A DNA stretch of 32,567 bases from Clostridia bacterium (GTDB lineage: Bacteria > Bacillota_A > Clostridia > Christensenellales > Aristaeellaceae), in the NCBI GenBank assembly GCA_017938645.1, contig JAGBBE010000007.1:1-32567 (forward strand), read 5' to 3'. The translations under genes were made by a program, and so were the position numbers. The notes below the pieces were generated by a model. The model worked only from the letters and a program-made list of their open reading frames with translations. It was not told the origin of the DNA and did no database searches. How positions within the stretch are numbered: position 1 is the stretch's first letter; the number at the start of each line of letters is the position of its first letter. Shown here in pieces: positions 10,341 to 15,638 of the stretch.

Positions 10341-11567
10341 ATGAAAAAGATCCTTTCTCTGGTTCTGGCTGTTCTGATGCTGCTGAGCTGCATGAGCTTT
10401 GCTGCCGCTGAAGAAAAGCCCACTCTCACCGTCTGGATTCCTGTGTATCAGTTTGGCGACGGCCCCTCTGATCTCGATTTCTGGACCAAGCATCTGCAGC
10501 CCTACGCTGATGCCAACAACTTCGACCTCATCATTGAAATCAAGCCCTGGACCGACTACTACACCAATGCCTACACCGCCCTGTCCGGCAGCGACGGCCC
10601 CGACGTAGTGTATGGCCCCACCTTTGACTTCATGAACAACGGCCTGCTCCTGCCCATCGGCGATTACTTCACCGCGGAAGAAAAGGACAACTACCTCTAC
10701 TGGGATATGGGCTTCCGTGATGCGGCCGGCAACCAGTACACCGTGCCCATGATGGTTGGCAACGCCTGCGTTACCTTCTACAACATGGACATCCTCAACG
10801 CTGCCGGCGTCACCGAGCTGCCCGCCACCTGGGAAGCTTTCCTGGAGATGTGCAAGGCCATTAAGGCTTCCAACCCCGATGTATTCCCCTACCTGCAGGG
10901 CTGGGGCGCTTCCACCGGCACCAGCGCTCTGCTGACCTGCTTCTGGCCCCAGTACTTCCAGGCCGGCGGCACCGTGCTGGATGAAAACGGCTATCCGGAC
11001 ATCAACAACGAAGCTGGTCTGAAGACCCTTGAGTACATCAAGAGCTTCATGGACGAAGGCATCTTCGACGAAACCATCGTTTCCATGAACGACGCTGTGG
11101 ATCGCTTTGTGAGCGGCGAGTGCGCCTCCATCGTTGCCGGCACCGGCAAGAACAAGTCCTTCTCCGAGATCAACTGGGATTTCAACCTGTCTCCCGCCGG
11201 TCCCGCTGGCGTGGCCACGCTGGTTCCCGCTGAAGGCATGGGCGTTTCCGCCAAGACCAAGTATCCCGAACTGGCTGTTGGCATCGTGAAGACCATGACC
11301 GGCGCTGCTGCGATGGACGACTTCCACACCAACGTGTACGCCATGCCCAAGATCTCCAAGGACTCCACCTTTGAAGATGCTCCCGCTTTCGAAACCATGT
11401 ACACCGAGCAGGCTGCGAACCTGTATGCTCTGCCCGGCTTCGAAGGCTCCGGTTCCTTTGAAGAGACCCTGCGCGGCAACATCCAGCTCATGCTCATGGG
11501 CGACATGACTCCCCAGGAAGTTCTGGACGAGACCATGGCTTACTACAACGACCAGATCAAGCAGTAA
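10341..11567 (+). CDS. ABC transporter extracellular sugar-binding protein (family 1)
   Basis: 408 residues from ATG at 10341, behind AAGGAGGAA. The N-terminus is an export signal (M-K-K, Leu/Val core, then S-C-M-S-F-A-A-A-E-E), with probable signal peptidase cleavage after A-A-A. A Cys lies in the core, but the context (L-L-S-C-M) is a poor lipobox, so a lipoprotein is possible but less likely. The mature part is a type 1 solute-binding protein: T-V-W-I-P near the N-terminus, G-P-D-V-V-Y-G-P, a hinge near T-V-P-M-M-V-G-N, and A-A-M-D-D-F near the C-terminus. It delivers an oligosaccharide or sugar derivative to the two permeases downstream. A structured repeat separates it from them, which may allow higher expression of the binding protein. 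Confidence 0.92.
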   Translation: MKKILSLVLAVLMLLSCMSFAAAEEKPTLTVWIPVYQFGDGPSDLDFWTKHLQPYADANNFDLIIEIKPWTDYYTNAYTALSGSDGPDVVYGPTFDFMNNGLLLPIGDYFTAEEKDNYLYWDMGFRDAAGNQYTVPMMVGNACVTFYNMDILNAAGVTELPATWEAFLEMCKAIKASNPDVFPYLQGWGASTGTSALLTCFWPQYFQAGGTVLDENGYPDINNEAGLKTLEYIKSFMDEGIFDETIVSMNDAVDRFVSGECASIVAGTGKNKSFSEINWDFNLSPAGPAGVATLVPAEGMGVSAKTKYPELAVGIVKTMTGAAAMDDFHTNVYAMPKISKDSTFEDAPAFETMYTEQAANLYALPGFEGSGSFEETLRGNIQLMLMGDMTPQEVLDETMAYYNDQIKQ

Positions 11568-11590
11568 TCAATTCACTTTTGCAGGTGGGA

Positions 11591-11797
11591 GAGCGGCGTC
11601 TCGCCGCTTAGACTGTCGATAAAATCCCTGGAAGGTATCGGAGGGATCGCAATCCCTCCGATTCTTGTTCGTATCGACCGGCTTTGCCGGTCGGGCGGGG
11701 AATTTTCACGCTTGCGTGAAAATATTCCGGCGGTATTTGGCGGAAAAGATCGCCAAAGGCGAGCTTTTTCGACATGCTGAGCGGCGTCTCGCCGCTC
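11591..11797. repeat. Structured intergenic repeat, copy 2 (with outer hairpins)
   Basis: The core 11610-11779 matches 3721-3891 and carries the same four hairpins. Two are compensated relative to copy 1: CGGAGGGAT/ATCCCTCCG, and TTTTCACG/CGTGAAAA (11703-11722). The C-G-A-C-C-G-G-C/G-C-C-G-G-T-C-G hairpin is unchanged. The core is bracketed by two copies of the hairpin GAGCGGCG-TCT-CGCCGCT (11591-11609 and 11779-11797), different in sequence from the outer hairpins of copy 1. It lies between the binding-protein and permease genes, in the direction of transcription, where such structures often protect or attenuate the message. Confidence 0.85.
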
Positions 11798-11825
11798 TCC
11801 CCTTGCTTATTACGGAGGGATTTGC

Positions 11826-12701
11826 GTGACCAGACAAAAGAAGCAGGCGCTGTACGGAACGCTGTACATCCTGCCAAGCTTTGTGCTGATGGCGGTGTTT
11901 ACCTTTATCCCCATCTTCATGACGATCTTATTCAGCTTTACCAAGTACAACCTCAGCATGCCGCCGGAATGGATCGGACTGCAGAATTATCAGAAGCTGA
12001 TCACCAATTCCTATTTGCATCAGGCGCTGCGCAACACTGTGCAGTATGTGGCGGTTACGGTTCCCTGCCAGACTTTTCTGGCGCTGGTGCTGGCGGCATT
12101 TCTGGCCGGATGGATGCGCAACCGGCTGGGCGGGCTTTTGCGCAGCATGATGTTTATTCCCGTGGTAGCGTCGCTGGTTGCCAGCGCTACCGTGTGGAAC
12201 GTGATTTACGAAAGCAATGGCGGTCTGCTCAACCAGCTGTTTGAGCTGGTGGGGCTGGAACCCTTCAACTGGCTTGGCCGCAAGAGCACGGCGCTCAACT
12301 GTGTGGCGGTTGTAGCCATCTGGAAGAACACCGGCTATTTCCTGGTCATTTTCTATGCCGGAATCATGAACATTTCCGTCGATATCAACGAGGCTGCCTG
12401 CGTGGACGGCGCAACGCCCATCCAGCGCTTCTTCTACATTACGCTGCCCATCCTCAAGCCCATCACCTACATGGTAGTTACGCTGGGCATTATCTGGTCG
12501 TTCCAGGTGTTTGACCTGGTATACAAGATGACTGCCGGAGGACCGGGCCGCGCGACCTACACCGTGGCCTATCTCATCTATTCCTATGCCTTCCAGGACA
12601 AACGCATCGGCTATGCGTGTGCGCTGGCTGTGTGCCTGCTGATTGTGATTCTGCTGATTCACGCCGTGCAGGATCTCTTCTTCAAGGAAAAGGACGCCTG
12701 A
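11826..12701 (+). CDS. ABC sugar transporter permease (MalF-like, CUT1)
   Basis: 291 residues from GTG at 11826, preceded by GGAGGG. It has six predicted membrane helices, the first after a short Lys/Arg-rich N-terminus (about 10-30, ending I-P-I-F-M-T-I). The cytoplasmic EAA loop that contacts the ATPase is E-A-A-C-V-D-G-A-T-P-I-Q-R-F-F near residues 189-203. This composition matches the MalF/UgpA side of carbohydrate uptake class 1 transporters. It pairs with the permease encoded 27 bases downstream. No ATPase gene is present locally, so energy is probably supplied by a shared MsmX-type ATPase encoded elsewhere. Confidence 0.93.
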   Translation: MTRQKKQALYGTLYILPSFVLMAVFTFIPIFMTILFSFTKYNLSMPPEWIGLQNYQKLITNSYLHQALRNTVQYVAVTVPCQTFLALVLAAFLAGWMRNRLGGLLRSMMFIPVVASLVASATVWNVIYESNGGLLNQLFELVGLEPFNWLGRKSTALNCVAVVAIWKNTGYFLVIFYAGIMNISVDINEAACVDGATPIQRFFYITLPILKPITYMVVTLGIIWSFQVFDLVYKMTAGGPGRATYTVAYLIYSYAFQDKRIGYACALAVCLLIVILLIHAVQDLFFKEKDA

Positions 12702-12728
12702 GAAATCTGCGAAAGGAATGGATGAATC

Positions 12729-13547
12729 ATGAAAAAACAGATAACCCCGGCCTATGTCATCGGCGTTGTGCTGTGCATCATCTTTGCGGTCATCTGCGTG
12801 CTGCCGCTGTGCTACATGGTGCTGATGTCCTTCACGCAGTCCACATCGCTGCGCATGCATATGGAAGATGTACGGCTGTTTGATTTCTCCAACTATATGT
12901 ACGCCATCGTCAACCGCGGCTTCGGCCCGGCGTTCTGGAACAGTATCATTGTAGTTGTAGGCTCCTGCCTGCTGGTGGACATCGTGTCCGCCATGGCGGC
13001 TTACGGCTTTGAAAAGAAGCCCGTACCCGGAAAGGAAACGCTGTTTCAGGTCTACCTGTCCACCATGATGGTCCCCGGTCAGGTGGCGCTGATTTCCATG
13101 TTTGTTATGGTCAACAAGCTCAACCTGTCCAACACCTATGCGGCGCTGATTCTGCCTATGGTGGGCGCGTTTGGCATCTTCCTGATGAGACAGTTCATGC
13201 AGGGCGTGCCCAATGAGCTTATTGAAGCGGCAGAAATTGACGGCAGCGGCGAAATCCGCACCTTCCTTACGATTGTGCTTCCGCTGATCCAGCCCGCCCT
13301 CATCACGCTGACGGTGTTCACCTTTACCTCAGCGTGGAACAACTTCCTCTGGCCGCTGATCATCACCACCCGCAGCTCCATGTTCACGCTGACTGTGGCC
13401 ATGTCCACGCTGAGCAGCATGAACGACACCAACTACGGCCTGGTCATGGCCGGTGCAACGCTTACTTTCATCTTCCCCTTCCTGCTCTACATTGTACTTC
13501 AGAAGCAGTTTGTGGAAGGCATTGCGCTGGGCGGCGTCAAGGGTTAA
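12729..13547 (+). CDS. ABC sugar transporter permease (MalG-like, CUT1)
   Basis: 272 residues from ATG at 12729, with GAAAGGAATGG as ribosome site. Six membrane helices are predicted. The EAA loop is I-E-A-A-E-I-D-G-S-G-E-I-R-T-F near residues 164-178, and the C-terminus Q-F-V-E-G-I-A-L-G-G-V-K-G is the classic MalG-type ending. It is the second half of the membrane channel and the last gene of the operon, followed by a strong terminator. Confidence 0.94.
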   Translation: MKKQITPAYVIGVVLCIIFAVICVLPLCYMVLMSFTQSTSLRMHMEDVRLFDFSNYMYAIVNRGFGPAFWNSIIVVVGSCLLVDIVSAMAAYGFEKKPVPGKETLFQVYLSTMMVPGQVALISMFVMVNKLNLSNTYAALILPMVGAFGIFLMRQFMQGVPNELIEAAEIDGSGEIRTFLTIVLPLIQPALITLTVFTFTSAWNNFLWPLIITTRSSMFTLTVAMSTLSSMNDTNYGLVMAGATLTFIFPFLLYIVLQKQFVEGIALGGVKG

Positions 13548-13554
13548 CCTGAAT

Positions 13555-13595
13555 GCATCCTCCCTGTATTTCCCAGCAGGGAGGATGCGTTTATT
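13555..13595 (+). terminator. Terminator of the sugar transporter operon
   Basis: GCATCCTCCCTG (13555-13566) and CAGGGAGGATGC (13577-13588) form a perfect 12-bp stem with a 10-base loop, followed by GTTTATT. Confidence 0.9.
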
Positions 13596-13607
13596 CTGTA
13601 TCAAATA

Positions 13608-13636
13608 TTGACACGGGTGCTGAAAAGGCATATCAT
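13608..13636 (+). promoter_or_regulatory. Promoter of the corA leader
   Basis: TTGACA (13608-13613), a 17-bp spacer and TATCAT (13631-13636). Transcription would start near 13643, giving a leader of about 195 nucleotides before the CorA start codon. Confidence 0.75.
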
Positions 13637-13677
13637 GAACAGGGATTGCACATAACGCTGATGAAAGGAGCCTCACC

Positions 13678-13758
13678 ATGGACGCGGACCCGTATAGTAA
13701 GACCATGAACAATTTCAAAGGCTCCGGGAGGAAGAATGTGCACTGGCCGGGCGCGTGA
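13678..13758 (+). CDS. 26-residue leader peptide upstream of corA
   Basis: ATG at 13678 lies 7 bases after AAAGGAG (13664-13670), a better ribosome site than that of corA itself. The frame runs 26 codons to TGA at 13756-13758. The product begins M-D-A-D-P-Y-S-K, continues through a basic Lys/Arg/Gly/Ser middle and ends H-W-P-G-A. The acidic and proline-containing N-terminus resembles the one known to destabilise ribosomes at low Mg2+ in the enterobacterial leader peptide MgtL. Its SD (GGAGCC, 13667-13672) can pair with GGCTCC (13720-13725) inside its own coding region, and its start codon with CCATG at 13703-13707. Function in attenuation of corA is inference; it could also be fortuitous. Confidence 0.5.
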   Translation: MDADPYSKTMNNFKGSGRKNVHWPGA

Positions 13759-13785
13759 GCCCCGCCGGGTGAACTGTATTGTTTT

Positions 13786-13835
13786 CCTGCCGTGAGCCAT
13801 GCTGCGCATGCAGTTTGACGAAAGGCAGGTTTTTT
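13786..13835 (+). terminator. Terminator-like hairpin masking the corA ribosome site
   Basis: CCTGCC (13786-13791) pairs with GGCAGG (13824-13829), followed by six T residues (13830-13835). A second small stem, CATGC/GCATG, lies between the arms. AGG in the 3' arm is the only SD-like sequence before the TTG start at 13838, so forming the stem would block both elongation and translation. Confidence 0.6.
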
Positions 13836-13837
13836 GT

Positions 13838-14770
13838 TTGAAAAGAATTTATCTCACGGTAGACGATCATCTCACCGAAATCAATACCCTGGAAAAAGGC
13901 TGCTGGGTGCATCTGCAGAATCCCACCCGCGAAGAAATTGACGGACTCAACGCGCGCTTTGCCCTCGACCCGACTTATCTGCAGGCCGCGCTGGACGAAG
14001 AAGAAAGCGCCCGTATTGAGCGCGATGGCGACCAGACGCTGATCATCGTCGATATTCCCTATGTCGAGCCTGATGGAAACGGCTATTCCTACACAACCAT
14101 TCCTATGGGCATTGTGATGGTGGACGATGTGATCATCACCGTATCCACCCGTGAGTCGACCATTATCACTGATTTTACCGAGGAACGTATCCGCGGCTTC
14201 TGGACCTTCAAGCGCACTCGCTTCCTGCTCCAGCTGCTGTACCGCAATGCATCCCGCTTCCTCAACTACCTCAAGCAAATCGAAAAAGCATCCGGCTTTG
14301 TGCAGGAACGCCTTCAGTCCACCATGCGCAATCAGGAGCTTCTGCAGATGATGAAGCTGGAGAAATCGCTGGTGTTCTTCTCCACCTCGCTCAAGAGCAA
14401 CGAGATGGTTTTGGAAAAAATGATGCGCATGGACATGCTGCGCAAGTATCCCGACGACAGCGACCTTCTTGAGGACGTTATCATTGAGAACAAGCAGGCC
14501 ATGGAGATGTGTTCCATCTACCGTGACATCACCTCCGGCACCATGGACGCATTTGCTTCCATCATTTCCAACAACCTCAACACCGTCATGAAGATCCTGA
14601 CCAGCTTCACCGTTGTTCTGGCCATTCCCACGATCTTCGCCTCTCTGTGGGGCATGAACGTAGGCGTGCCATTTGAGAACAATCCTTTTGGCTTCTGGAT
14701 TGTTCTTGGCATTGCCATTCTTGCCAGCATCGCCGTTTTCATCATCCTCTGGCGCAAAAAGATGTTCTGA
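13838..14770 (+). CDS. corA: CorA-family Mg2+/divalent cation channel
   Basis: 310 residues from TTG at 13838 (K-R-I-Y-L-T-V-D-D...), chosen because family members start about here. The frame is open back to an ATG at 13799, but that would place the terminator-like hairpin inside the gene. The large N-terminal cytoplasmic domain has the usual E-K-G-C-W-V-H-L-Q-N-P-T opening and long helices. The signature G-M-N is at 272-274 (L-W-G-M-N-V-G-V-P), at the end of the first of two C-terminal membrane helices, and the protein ends in the basic R-K-K-M-F. Pentameric CorA channels admit Mg2+ (sometimes Co2+ or Ni2+) down its gradient. The gene is monocistronic and has an unusually elaborate leader. 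Confidence 0.92.
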   Translation: MKRIYLTVDDHLTEINTLEKGCWVHLQNPTREEIDGLNARFALDPTYLQAALDEEESARIERDGDQTLIIVDIPYVEPDGNGYSYTTIPMGIVMVDDVIITVSTRESTIITDFTEERIRGFWTFKRTRFLLQLLYRNASRFLNYLKQIEKASGFVQERLQSTMRNQELLQMMKLEKSLVFFSTSLKSNEMVLEKMMRMDMLRKYPDDSDLLEDVIIENKQAMEMCSIYRDITSGTMDAFASIISNNLNTVMKILTSFTVVLAIPTIFASLWGMNVGVPFENNPFGFWIVLGIAILASIAVFIILWRKKMF

Positions 14771-14771
14771 G

Positions 14772-14882
14772 CAGGGCTTCGCCCTGGACCCGTGGACGGC
14801 GCGCCGCAGGCGCGCAGGGCTTGTGTGCCGGTGCTTGATGCAGACTTCTCAGACTGCCGCTCGGCGGAGAGCCTCGCGGCTC
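14772..14882. repeat. Cluster of four GC-rich hairpins
   Basis: Directly after the corA stop come CAGGGC/GCCCTG (14772-14786), a perfect GCGCGCC/GGCGCGC (14799-14815), CCGC/GCGG (14857-14867) and GAGCC/GGCTC (14869-14882). No T runs follow, so these are not ordinary terminators. The rest of the interval to 14921 contains only the SDR ribosome site; no clear promoter is visible. Confidence 0.55.
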
Positions 14883-14921
14883 GCTTGTGTGATCGGGAAA
14901 TGAAATAACGGGAGGAATAAT

Positions 14922-15638
14922 ATGCGTACTGCTCTTATCACTGGAGGAAGCAGGGGGATTGGCGCGCAGACGGTTCGCACGTTTGCGGCGGCGGGATACC
15001 GCACTGCGTTTTTTTACCGTTCCAGTGAAGAGGCAGCCAGAGCGTTGGCGGATGAAACAGGGGCTTGTGCCATTGGCTGCGATGTGTCGGACAGTGCGTC
15101 GGTGAAAGCGGCATGCAGCGAAGCGCAAAGGGTGCTTTCGCACATTGATGTGCTGGTGAACAACGCAGGAATCGCGCAGCAGAAGCTGTTTACCGACATT
15201 ACGGACGAGGACTGGCAGCGCATGCTGGGAGTGAATCTGTCCGGCGCGTTTTATGTTAGCCGCGAGGTGCTGCCGGGGATGATTTCGCGTCGGCACGGGC
15301 GGATTGTGAACGTCGGAAGCATCTGGGGACAGGTGGGCGCAAGCTGCGAGGTGCATTACTCAGCGGCGAAGGCGGGGCTGATTGGTCTGACAAAGGCGCT
15401 GGCCAAGGAGGTTGCGCCCAGCGGCGTCACGGTCAACTGCGTCTGTCCCGGTGTGATTGAAACCGATATGCTTTCCAGCTTTTCCAAGGAGGATCTGGGG
15501 GCGCTTACGGAGGAAACGCCCGTTGGCCGTTTGGGAACGCCCGAGGATGTAGCGGCCATGATTTTGTGGCTTTGTGATGAAAAAGCCGGCTTCGTCACCG
15601 GACAGGTAATCGGAGTCAACGGCGGTTTCGGCGAATAA
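14922..15638 (+). CDS. Short-chain dehydrogenase/reductase (FabG-like)
   Basis: 238 residues; the ATG at 14922 follows GGGAGGA. The Rossmann glycine motif is T-G-G-S-R-G-I-G at 7-14. N-N-A-G is at 80-83 and the catalytic residues are Asn105, Ser133, Tyr146 and Lys150 (Y-S-A-A-K). The C-terminus V-T-G-Q-V-I-G-V-N-G-G is typical of FabG-type ketoacyl reductases. It is NAD(P)H dependent and cytoplasmic. The gene is not in a fatty-acid operon, so the substrate is open; proteins of this shape in Firmicutes include the EF-P 5-aminopentanone reductase YmfI. The aldo/keto reductase gene starts 16 bases downstream, so the two are likely co-transcribed. Confidence 0.85.
   Translation: MRTALITGGSRGIGAQTVRTFAAAGYRTAFFYRSSEEAARALADETGACAIGCDVSDSASVKAACSEAQRVLSHIDVLVNNAGIAQQKLFTDITDEDWQRMLGVNLSGAFYVSREVLPGMISRRHGRIVNVGSIWGQVGASCEVHYSAAKAGLIGLTKALAKEVAPSGVTVNCVCPGVIETDMLSSFSKEDLGALTEETPVGRLGTPEDVAAMILWLCDEKAGFVTGQVIGVNGGFGE

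Follow-up and report, generated by a model that had tools for sequence, protein, structure and literature searches.

An acidic upstream reading frame and alternative leader helices point to probable ribosome-based Mg2+ sensing before corA in Clostridia

We analysed a stretch of 32,567 nucleotides from a Clostridia bacterium (hereafter the window), in which a corA gene with a TTG start occupies 13838..14770; the gene and all features of its leader described below lie on the forward strand. Its product matches PF01544 with 190.9 bits and contains a GMN stretch, which we take to be the CorA motif, while its TIGR00383 score (115.3 bits) lies under the cut-off of 200.75. The CorA matches of relatives start at the codon aligned with the TTG at 13838. 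An in-frame ATG at 13799, inside the leader hairpin described below, opens a 323-aa frame, and automatic annotation may place the corA start there, thereby hiding the terminator. Upstream, within 10344-13593, there is an ABC operon (a binding protein and two permeases) and, after it, a terminator-like hairpin (13550-13593), so that corA is probably its own transcription unit. A promoter-like site, TTGACA-17 nt-TATCAT, follows at 13608..13636 (TTGACA 13608-13613, TATCAT 13631-13636), and from the inferred transcription start the leader runs about 195 nt up to corA. An earlier note on this DNA had called this promoter strong: the site has 11 of 12 matches, but, as the single one within 13000-15000, its presence alone is not above chance (shuffle mean 1.3). 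All 22 close leaders also have a promoter-like pair 5' of the upstream reading frame, although the pattern used was permissive and had no control.

The leader contains an upstream open reading frame (uORF) of 26 codons at 13678..13758 (stop codon 13756-13758), whose peptide, MDADPYSKTMNNFKGSGRKNVHWPGA, starts MDADPYS. Its Shine-Dalgarno sequence (SD), AAAGGAG (13664..13670), leaves 7 nt between GGAG and ATG, which confirms the near-ideal spacing claimed before. Four regions of the leader can pair in alternative ways. Region 1 (GGAGCCT, 13667..13673) overlaps the uORF SD and can form 7 bp with 13719-13725, with double changes in relatives. Region 2 (AGGCTCCGGGAGGAA, 13719..13733) lies within the uORF, in any frame in relatives, and is a partner either of region 1 or of region 3 (TTCCTGCCGTGAGCC, 13784..13798). 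Region 3 can pair instead with region 4 (GGCAGG, 13824..13829) via the complementary CCTGCC at 13786-13791. Region 4 is the 3' arm of the terminator and, judging from its position, contains or abuts the corA SD; it is followed by a T6 tract (13830..13835) ending 2 nt short of the corA start codon. The hairpin and T6 just before the TTG start are therefore where the earlier note had placed them. This hairpin is missing from the terminator scan because the scan takes loops of 3-8 only. The window has no Rfam match at gathering threshold, and four weak hits to microRNA and snoRNA families of eukaryotes (E 0.17-2.1) were discarded. A single stable fold of the whole leader is likewise not supported, its minimum free energy not being clearly lower than that of shuffled sequences (z -0.74).

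By scanning genome contigs for CorA similarity and keeping 80 of 123 loci, we obtained, with the window added, a sample of 81 leaders. The closest CorA relatives among the kept loci belong to a Clostridia MAG (92%) and, among named taxa, to Candidatus Limiplasma (86-87%), a lineage of the Clostridia within the Bacillota. Using the pattern [ATG]TG followed by [DE]-x-[DEG]-P at most 450 nt upstream of corA, we found a uORF starting M[DE]x[DG]P in 43 of the 81 leaders, window included. The motif is present in 37 of the 39 first-listed loci (absent from L031 and L035) and in 5 of the 41 last-listed, so that the predicted conservation of a small ORF with an acidic, Pro-containing start upstream of related corA genes is borne out. 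The 38 leaders without the motif are chiefly the more distant ones, and the Methanoregula-type archaeal corA relatives have no uORF by this pattern. When an SD was required and the distance limited to 300 nt, 42 of 81 leaders still matched, compared with none on the reverse complement and a mean of 0.03 (maximum 1) in 100 shuffles. These controls, together with the genes that neighbour the motif in the blind scans reported below, rule out chance or artefact as the source of the uORF start.

The pattern itself leaves no choice at the first two positions of codons 2 and 5 and little at codon 4, so the evidence has to come from codon 3, from third bases and from how many loci carry the motif. Among the 42 SD-bearing uORFs, codon 3, which is free in the pattern, encodes Ala (27) or Gly (15) using seven different codons, and the third bases differ among members, above all at codon 5 (CCG 17, CCC 13, CCA 6, CCT 6). 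The restriction of codon 3 to Ala or Gly and the varied third bases indicate that the uORF start is kept as a peptide. Codon 2 is Asp in 39 and Glu in 3 of these uORFs, and codon 4 is Asp in 40 and Gly in 2, never Glu though the pattern permits it. In the set of 43 leaders, Gly at position 4 (L025, L038 and L039) leaves one acid fewer. In 33 of the 42 uORFs codon 7 encodes Ser, every time as AGT (13696-13698 in the window), and the next codon is CGA in 14. An internal -10 element behind this constant AGT was dropped by eye, the members reading CCCGGCAGT or CCGAGTAGT. Beyond about codon 7 the peptides diverge, which rules out conservation of the whole peptide. Thus, the codon-level conservation proposed as a check holds for the first codons, but the remainder of the uORF is kept as RNA. 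The same data bear on the possibility that the peptide itself is a small protein that regulates CorA in trans. The SD, the start and the codon pattern do point to translation, but with sequences that differ past about codon 7 and a region 2 that is read in different frames, we regard a trans-acting product as extremely unlikely.

Two genome-wide scans for an SD followed by M-D-[AG]-D-P, run without regard to the neighbouring gene, gave matches in 25 of 200 and 30 of 299 genomes; in the second scan, 30 of the 44 matches listed had a locus and were thus classified. First, 37 (22 + 15) of the 42 (24 + 18) classified frames of at most 70 aa sit 70-393 nt before Mg2+ genes, among which mgtE and the ABC system were recognised as such after the matches appeared. 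These short frames precede corA (27), mgtE (8) or an ABC permease (2), and five others (L092, L101, L118, which is cut by the contig end, L133 and L145) have no such placement. Second, longer frames precede such genes in 0 of 4 and 1 of 12 cases (1 of 16 in all). The scans overlap the corA sample: the seed genome of L010 turns up again, as do some of its loci (L023 and L024, for instance, as judged by match positions and peptides). In addition, some BLAST queries were drawn from the matches, and L134 and L203 are the same place. In L125 and L180 the MDADP frame is open further upstream, and its start is thus not fixed by a stop. MgtE was confirmed by Pfam in 7 of the 9 mgtE loci and by BLAST in the other two. 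CorA and MgtE are unrelated families that have Mg2+ in common. Separately, a 447-aa protein at position 1516 of L108, CorC/CNNM-like by eye, itself starts MDADPDPDG after an SD.

We also drew 61 genomes from across the phylum, from which 30 corA and 30 mgtE loci were fetched and 29 of each used. For ten second residues, uORFs located 60-250 nt upstream were counted and compared with 60 shuffles. Asp as the second residue was found before corA in 10 of 29 loci (shuffle mean 0.93, maximum 7) and before mgtE in 9 of 29 (mean 1.07, maximum 4), and Glu before mgtE in 7 (mean 1.37, maximum 4). These three counts, namely Asp for corA and both Asp and Glu for mgtE, exceed every shuffle. Thr before mgtE (4; mean 1.22, maximum 4) equals the shuffle maximum, and the remaining residues are not above shuffles. 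The stricter M[DE]x[DE] start occurs before mgtE in 8 of 29 loci (mean 0.33, maximum 3) and, more modestly, before corA in 4 of 29 (mean 0.41, maximum 3), one of which, L189 at -317, looks like chance. Starts in this draw include MDDP, MDSGP and MDGLP; the mgtE match MDRCHC looks like a chance one. In L197, L200, L204, L205, L206, L208, L209 and L210, corA is preceded at 89-151 nt by uORFs starting MDGLPS, MDDP, MDSGPS, MDSGDS, MDDAGGS or MDDHPD, which are perhaps variants of the same class. The presence of an MDADP-type start before corA and before unrelated Mg2+ transporters suggests that the ribosome could serve as a gauge of Mg2+.

The ABC system found by the blind scans comprises a 575-aa double permease and an ATPase with AAA_assoc_C (L178 2251-5840; also L184-L187). 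Searching 101 genomes, we found an M-box upstream of it in 5 of the 5 genomes that have it, two of which also carry the MDADP frame. Because an M-box precedes it, there is an independent sign of its Mg2+ control, and we consider this system a candidate Mg2+ transporter. We scanned 20 of the 30 MgtE loci for an M-box and found it in 8; of the 30 CorA loci 20 were scanned, with 1 M-box, and among 13 other loci 7 had one. An M-box (RF00380) and an acidic uORF share one leader in L146, L164, L169, L124, L126, L178, L184 and L200, the last with an MDDP uORF before corA; such leaders possibly hold two Mg2+ sensors in series. Matches to the c-di-GMP-II riboswitch were seen on the opposite strand near an mgtE leader (L126 1719-1801) and an ABC leader (L178 6104-6187). 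The M-box resembles the uORF in preceding mgtE and the ABC system in Bacillota genomes, and differs from it in being an RNA aptamer; RF00380 has no match in the window at gathering threshold. The M-box found beside the uORF in some mgtE and ABC leaders could be taken to mean that the corA leader RNA itself binds Mg2+, as a riboswitch, with the uORF merely coupling translation. Since the window has no Rfam match, the segment that separates regions 2 and 3 is variable in both length and sequence, and the uORF start is kept as a peptide, we find direct binding improbable.

The architecture of the leader was then compared among close relatives. Region 2 was found in 21 of 23 close leaders, and its stretch GGCTCCGGG is kept in the alignment of 22. 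Relative to the uORF it falls in frames 0, 1 and 2 in 6, 13 and 2 leaders, and since all three frames occur, it must be kept as RNA and not as peptide. It begins 34-65 nt past the uORF start in 21 of 22 leaders (25 in L018), and in all 22 the uORF stop codon comes after region 2 and before region 3. In the window, duplex energies are -14.1 kcal/mol for helix 1:2 (7 bp), -24.2 for 2:3 (13 bp with two interruptions) and -12.2 for 3:4. Helix 1:2 is paired in 87.9% of cells with 8 double-change cells, and helix 2:3 in 86.4% with 9; both cell counts were reached by 0 of 500 shuffles, a comparison that related sequences can pass even without structure. For helix 2:3, the number of double-change pairs (2) and of further pair types (6) was not above shuffles (325 and 467 of 500). 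In L017, L018 and L020, helix 1:2 is poorly formed or missing. Helix 3:4 shows standard pairs in 99.2% of cells over 22 leaders, being next to invariant, with no double changes in this set.

The hairpin followed by T residues, which the earlier note proposed to look for in relatives, recurs as far as the pairing goes, but the T run recurs only in part. T tracts follow the hairpin in close relatives, and the counts for L006, L017 and L020 in the folding survey (0, 1 and 0) take only T directly after region 4. In ten Fournierella-type leaders, region 1 and its partner are of other sequence and, by eye and with pairs uncounted, apparently complementary (for instance AAAGGC with GCCTTT, and CAGCATGG with CCATGCTG). 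These leaders retain the hairpin arm adjoining the corA start, and 7 of the 10 have no T run. With the arm kept and the T run missing in most of them, it is SD sequestration that seems to be constant, and termination would have been added in the window's clade.

Helices 1:2, 2:3 and 3:4 in alternation, with a uORF over regions 1 and 2, define the trp-type attenuator, and the leader shares this anatomy. It could accordingly be read as amino-acid attenuation, in which the uORF would sense charged tRNA-Asp or tRNA-Pro. The leader lacks, however, the repeated codons for the sensed amino acid: its conserved part has just two Asp codons and one Pro codon, at the extreme start, and in some members Asp is swapped for Glu or Gly. 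Given also that the controlled genes are Mg2+ transporters, amino-acid attenuation appears highly improbable to us.

We folded the 22 leaders with and without ribosome masks. In free RNA the mean probabilities of helices 2:3 and 3:4 were 0.23 and 0.53, and with a ribosome masked over the uORF start they became 0.41 and 0.31. Masking region 2 raised mean p(3:4) to 0.74, p(2:3) being 0.00 by construction. With the start masked, 3:4 was still preferred in 9 of 22 leaders, and L010 formed 2:3 in no state. In the window, the start-masked fold was about the same as the free RNA (2:3 0.67, 3:4 0.00).

Three enterobacterial leaders offer points of comparison. As described in the cited parts of PMC11282234, the EPDP at positions 2-5 of MgtL is a destabilising motif that causes drop-off at low Mg2+, and translation of the full uORF keeps mgtA off. 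In the E. coli K-12 record, MgtL has 17 residues and starts MEPDP, which has the same M-acid-x-acid-Pro order as MDADP. The comparison with MgtL made earlier is thus apt: both starts lie in the leader of a Mg2+ importer gene. Past the first five residues we saw no likeness. In addition, the MgtL leader of enterobacteria belongs to a P-type ATPase gene and relies on termination by Rho (PMC11282234, in the parts cited), whereas the clostridial corA is preceded by a hairpin with T6 that would also sequester its SD. Judging from the sequence, control here seems to be exerted by an intrinsic terminator, by hiding of the ribosome-binding site (RBS) or by both, rather than by Rho, which may still act in addition. 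More generally, early acidic residues abort translation and Mg2+ suppresses this abortion, according to the parts of PMC9718836 cited here.

MgtQ, a uORF between mgtC and mgtB of Salmonella, shares with our leader the early acids (Asp2 and Glu5) and a switch among stem-loops 1:2, 2:3 and 3:4 that frees the hidden mgtB RBS, as reported in the portions of PMC8092293 used. It differs in having 8 codons and in lying between two operon genes to control mgtB. CorL of E. coli and Salmonella is likewise a corA uORF, whose translation is inverse to that of corA and responds to Mg2+; it is reported to be poor in acidic residues and Pro (one Pro), to start with UUG and to act through Rho (PMC11552253, parts cited). 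Several features of the IRD type, the MgtL/MgtQ class, recur in the window: a Mg2+ transporter gene whose leader holds a short ORF, and acidic (and Pro) residues in the first five codons, kept as peptide. A further mark of the class, bL31-sensitive abortion of uORF translation when Mg2+ is low, is predicted for the window. Mutually exclusive structures set by the ribosome are found by comparison and folding, with nine of the 22 start-masked folds disagreeing. By analogy, the leader would join the peptide logic of MgtL to the RNA logic of MgtQ and add a terminator.

Taken together, we hold with good confidence that the corA leader is a Mg2+-responsive, ribosome-sensing attenuator. Sequence comparison establishes the uORF, its kept N-terminus, the alternative helices and the tie to Mg2+ transporters. 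We infer that Mg2+ is the signal, that translation aborts at the acidic residues, and in which direction control runs. When Mg2+ is sufficient, the ribosome would pass codons 2-5 and translate through region 2; with region 2 covered, or re-paired with region 1 after release, the 3:4 terminator would form and also hide the corA SD, so that corA would be shut off. When Mg2+ is scarce, ribosomes with just MDADP synthesised would become unstable and fall off or pause, leaving region 2 free to pair with region 3; the 3:4 hairpin would then be blocked, and corA transcribed and translated. Against this reading we count that the motif carries only two acids and one Pro.

One form of this attenuator would have the ribosome pause on MDADP-Y-S with no drop-off, keeping region 1 open and region 2 free, and corA on. 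Region 1 overlaps the uORF SD, so that an occupied start favours 2:3 on average, and AGT at codon 7 in 33 of 42 uORFs hints at a defined position. From the footprint size of a ribosome, region 2, which starts 34-65 nt downstream in 21 of 22 leaders, would be mostly outside a ribosome on codon 5. On the other hand, the free third bases speak against a codon-specific pause at codons 2-5. Moreover, MgtL toeprinting without EttA showed no stall, in the part of PMC11282234 cited. We therefore see pausing with no drop-off as possible but doubtful, within an attenuator that we otherwise favour.

In the cited papers, as far as the parts used go, the only leaders described as sensing Mg2+ through ribosome stability during translation are enterobacterial. 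The cited parts of further papers describe a gammaproteobacterial corA RNA motif (PMC6429828) and an mgtE motif of Thioalkalivibrio, a uORF with an M-box in mycobacteria and additional uORFs (PMC11109978, PMC12810186, PMC8632094), and give no account of a leader like the present one. Among the best 10-30 matches in the open-licence literature, none describes a leader of this kind in Gram-positive bacteria. Enterobacteria are the source of what is known of this mechanism class, while the carrier, the output and the transporter families are new compared with the literature searched. In its essentials the earlier reading holds as a prediction, and the finding extends further than the note had put forward, with mgtE, the ABC system and the 1:2/2:3/3:4 architecture added to it.

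We think it probable that these leaders represent a Bacillota phylum-wide class of ribosome-based Mg2+ sensors, in which uORFs starting with M-Asp and further acidic, Pro or Gly residues switch CorA, MgtE and the ABC system, in some cases with an M-box in tandem. This class would have an origin separate from that of the enterobacterial MgtL and CorL, and would have reached the same destabilising N-terminus by convergence. If so, the motif would serve as a sequence tag for Mg2+ transporters, having already pointed to the ABC system that was later found with an M-box. The natural variants MDADP, MDGDP, MEADP, MDAGP, MDDP and MDSGP would reveal which features of the peptide are needed. Finally, an independent Bacillota class acting on three transporter families would make the sensing of Mg2+ by the ribosome a general principle.
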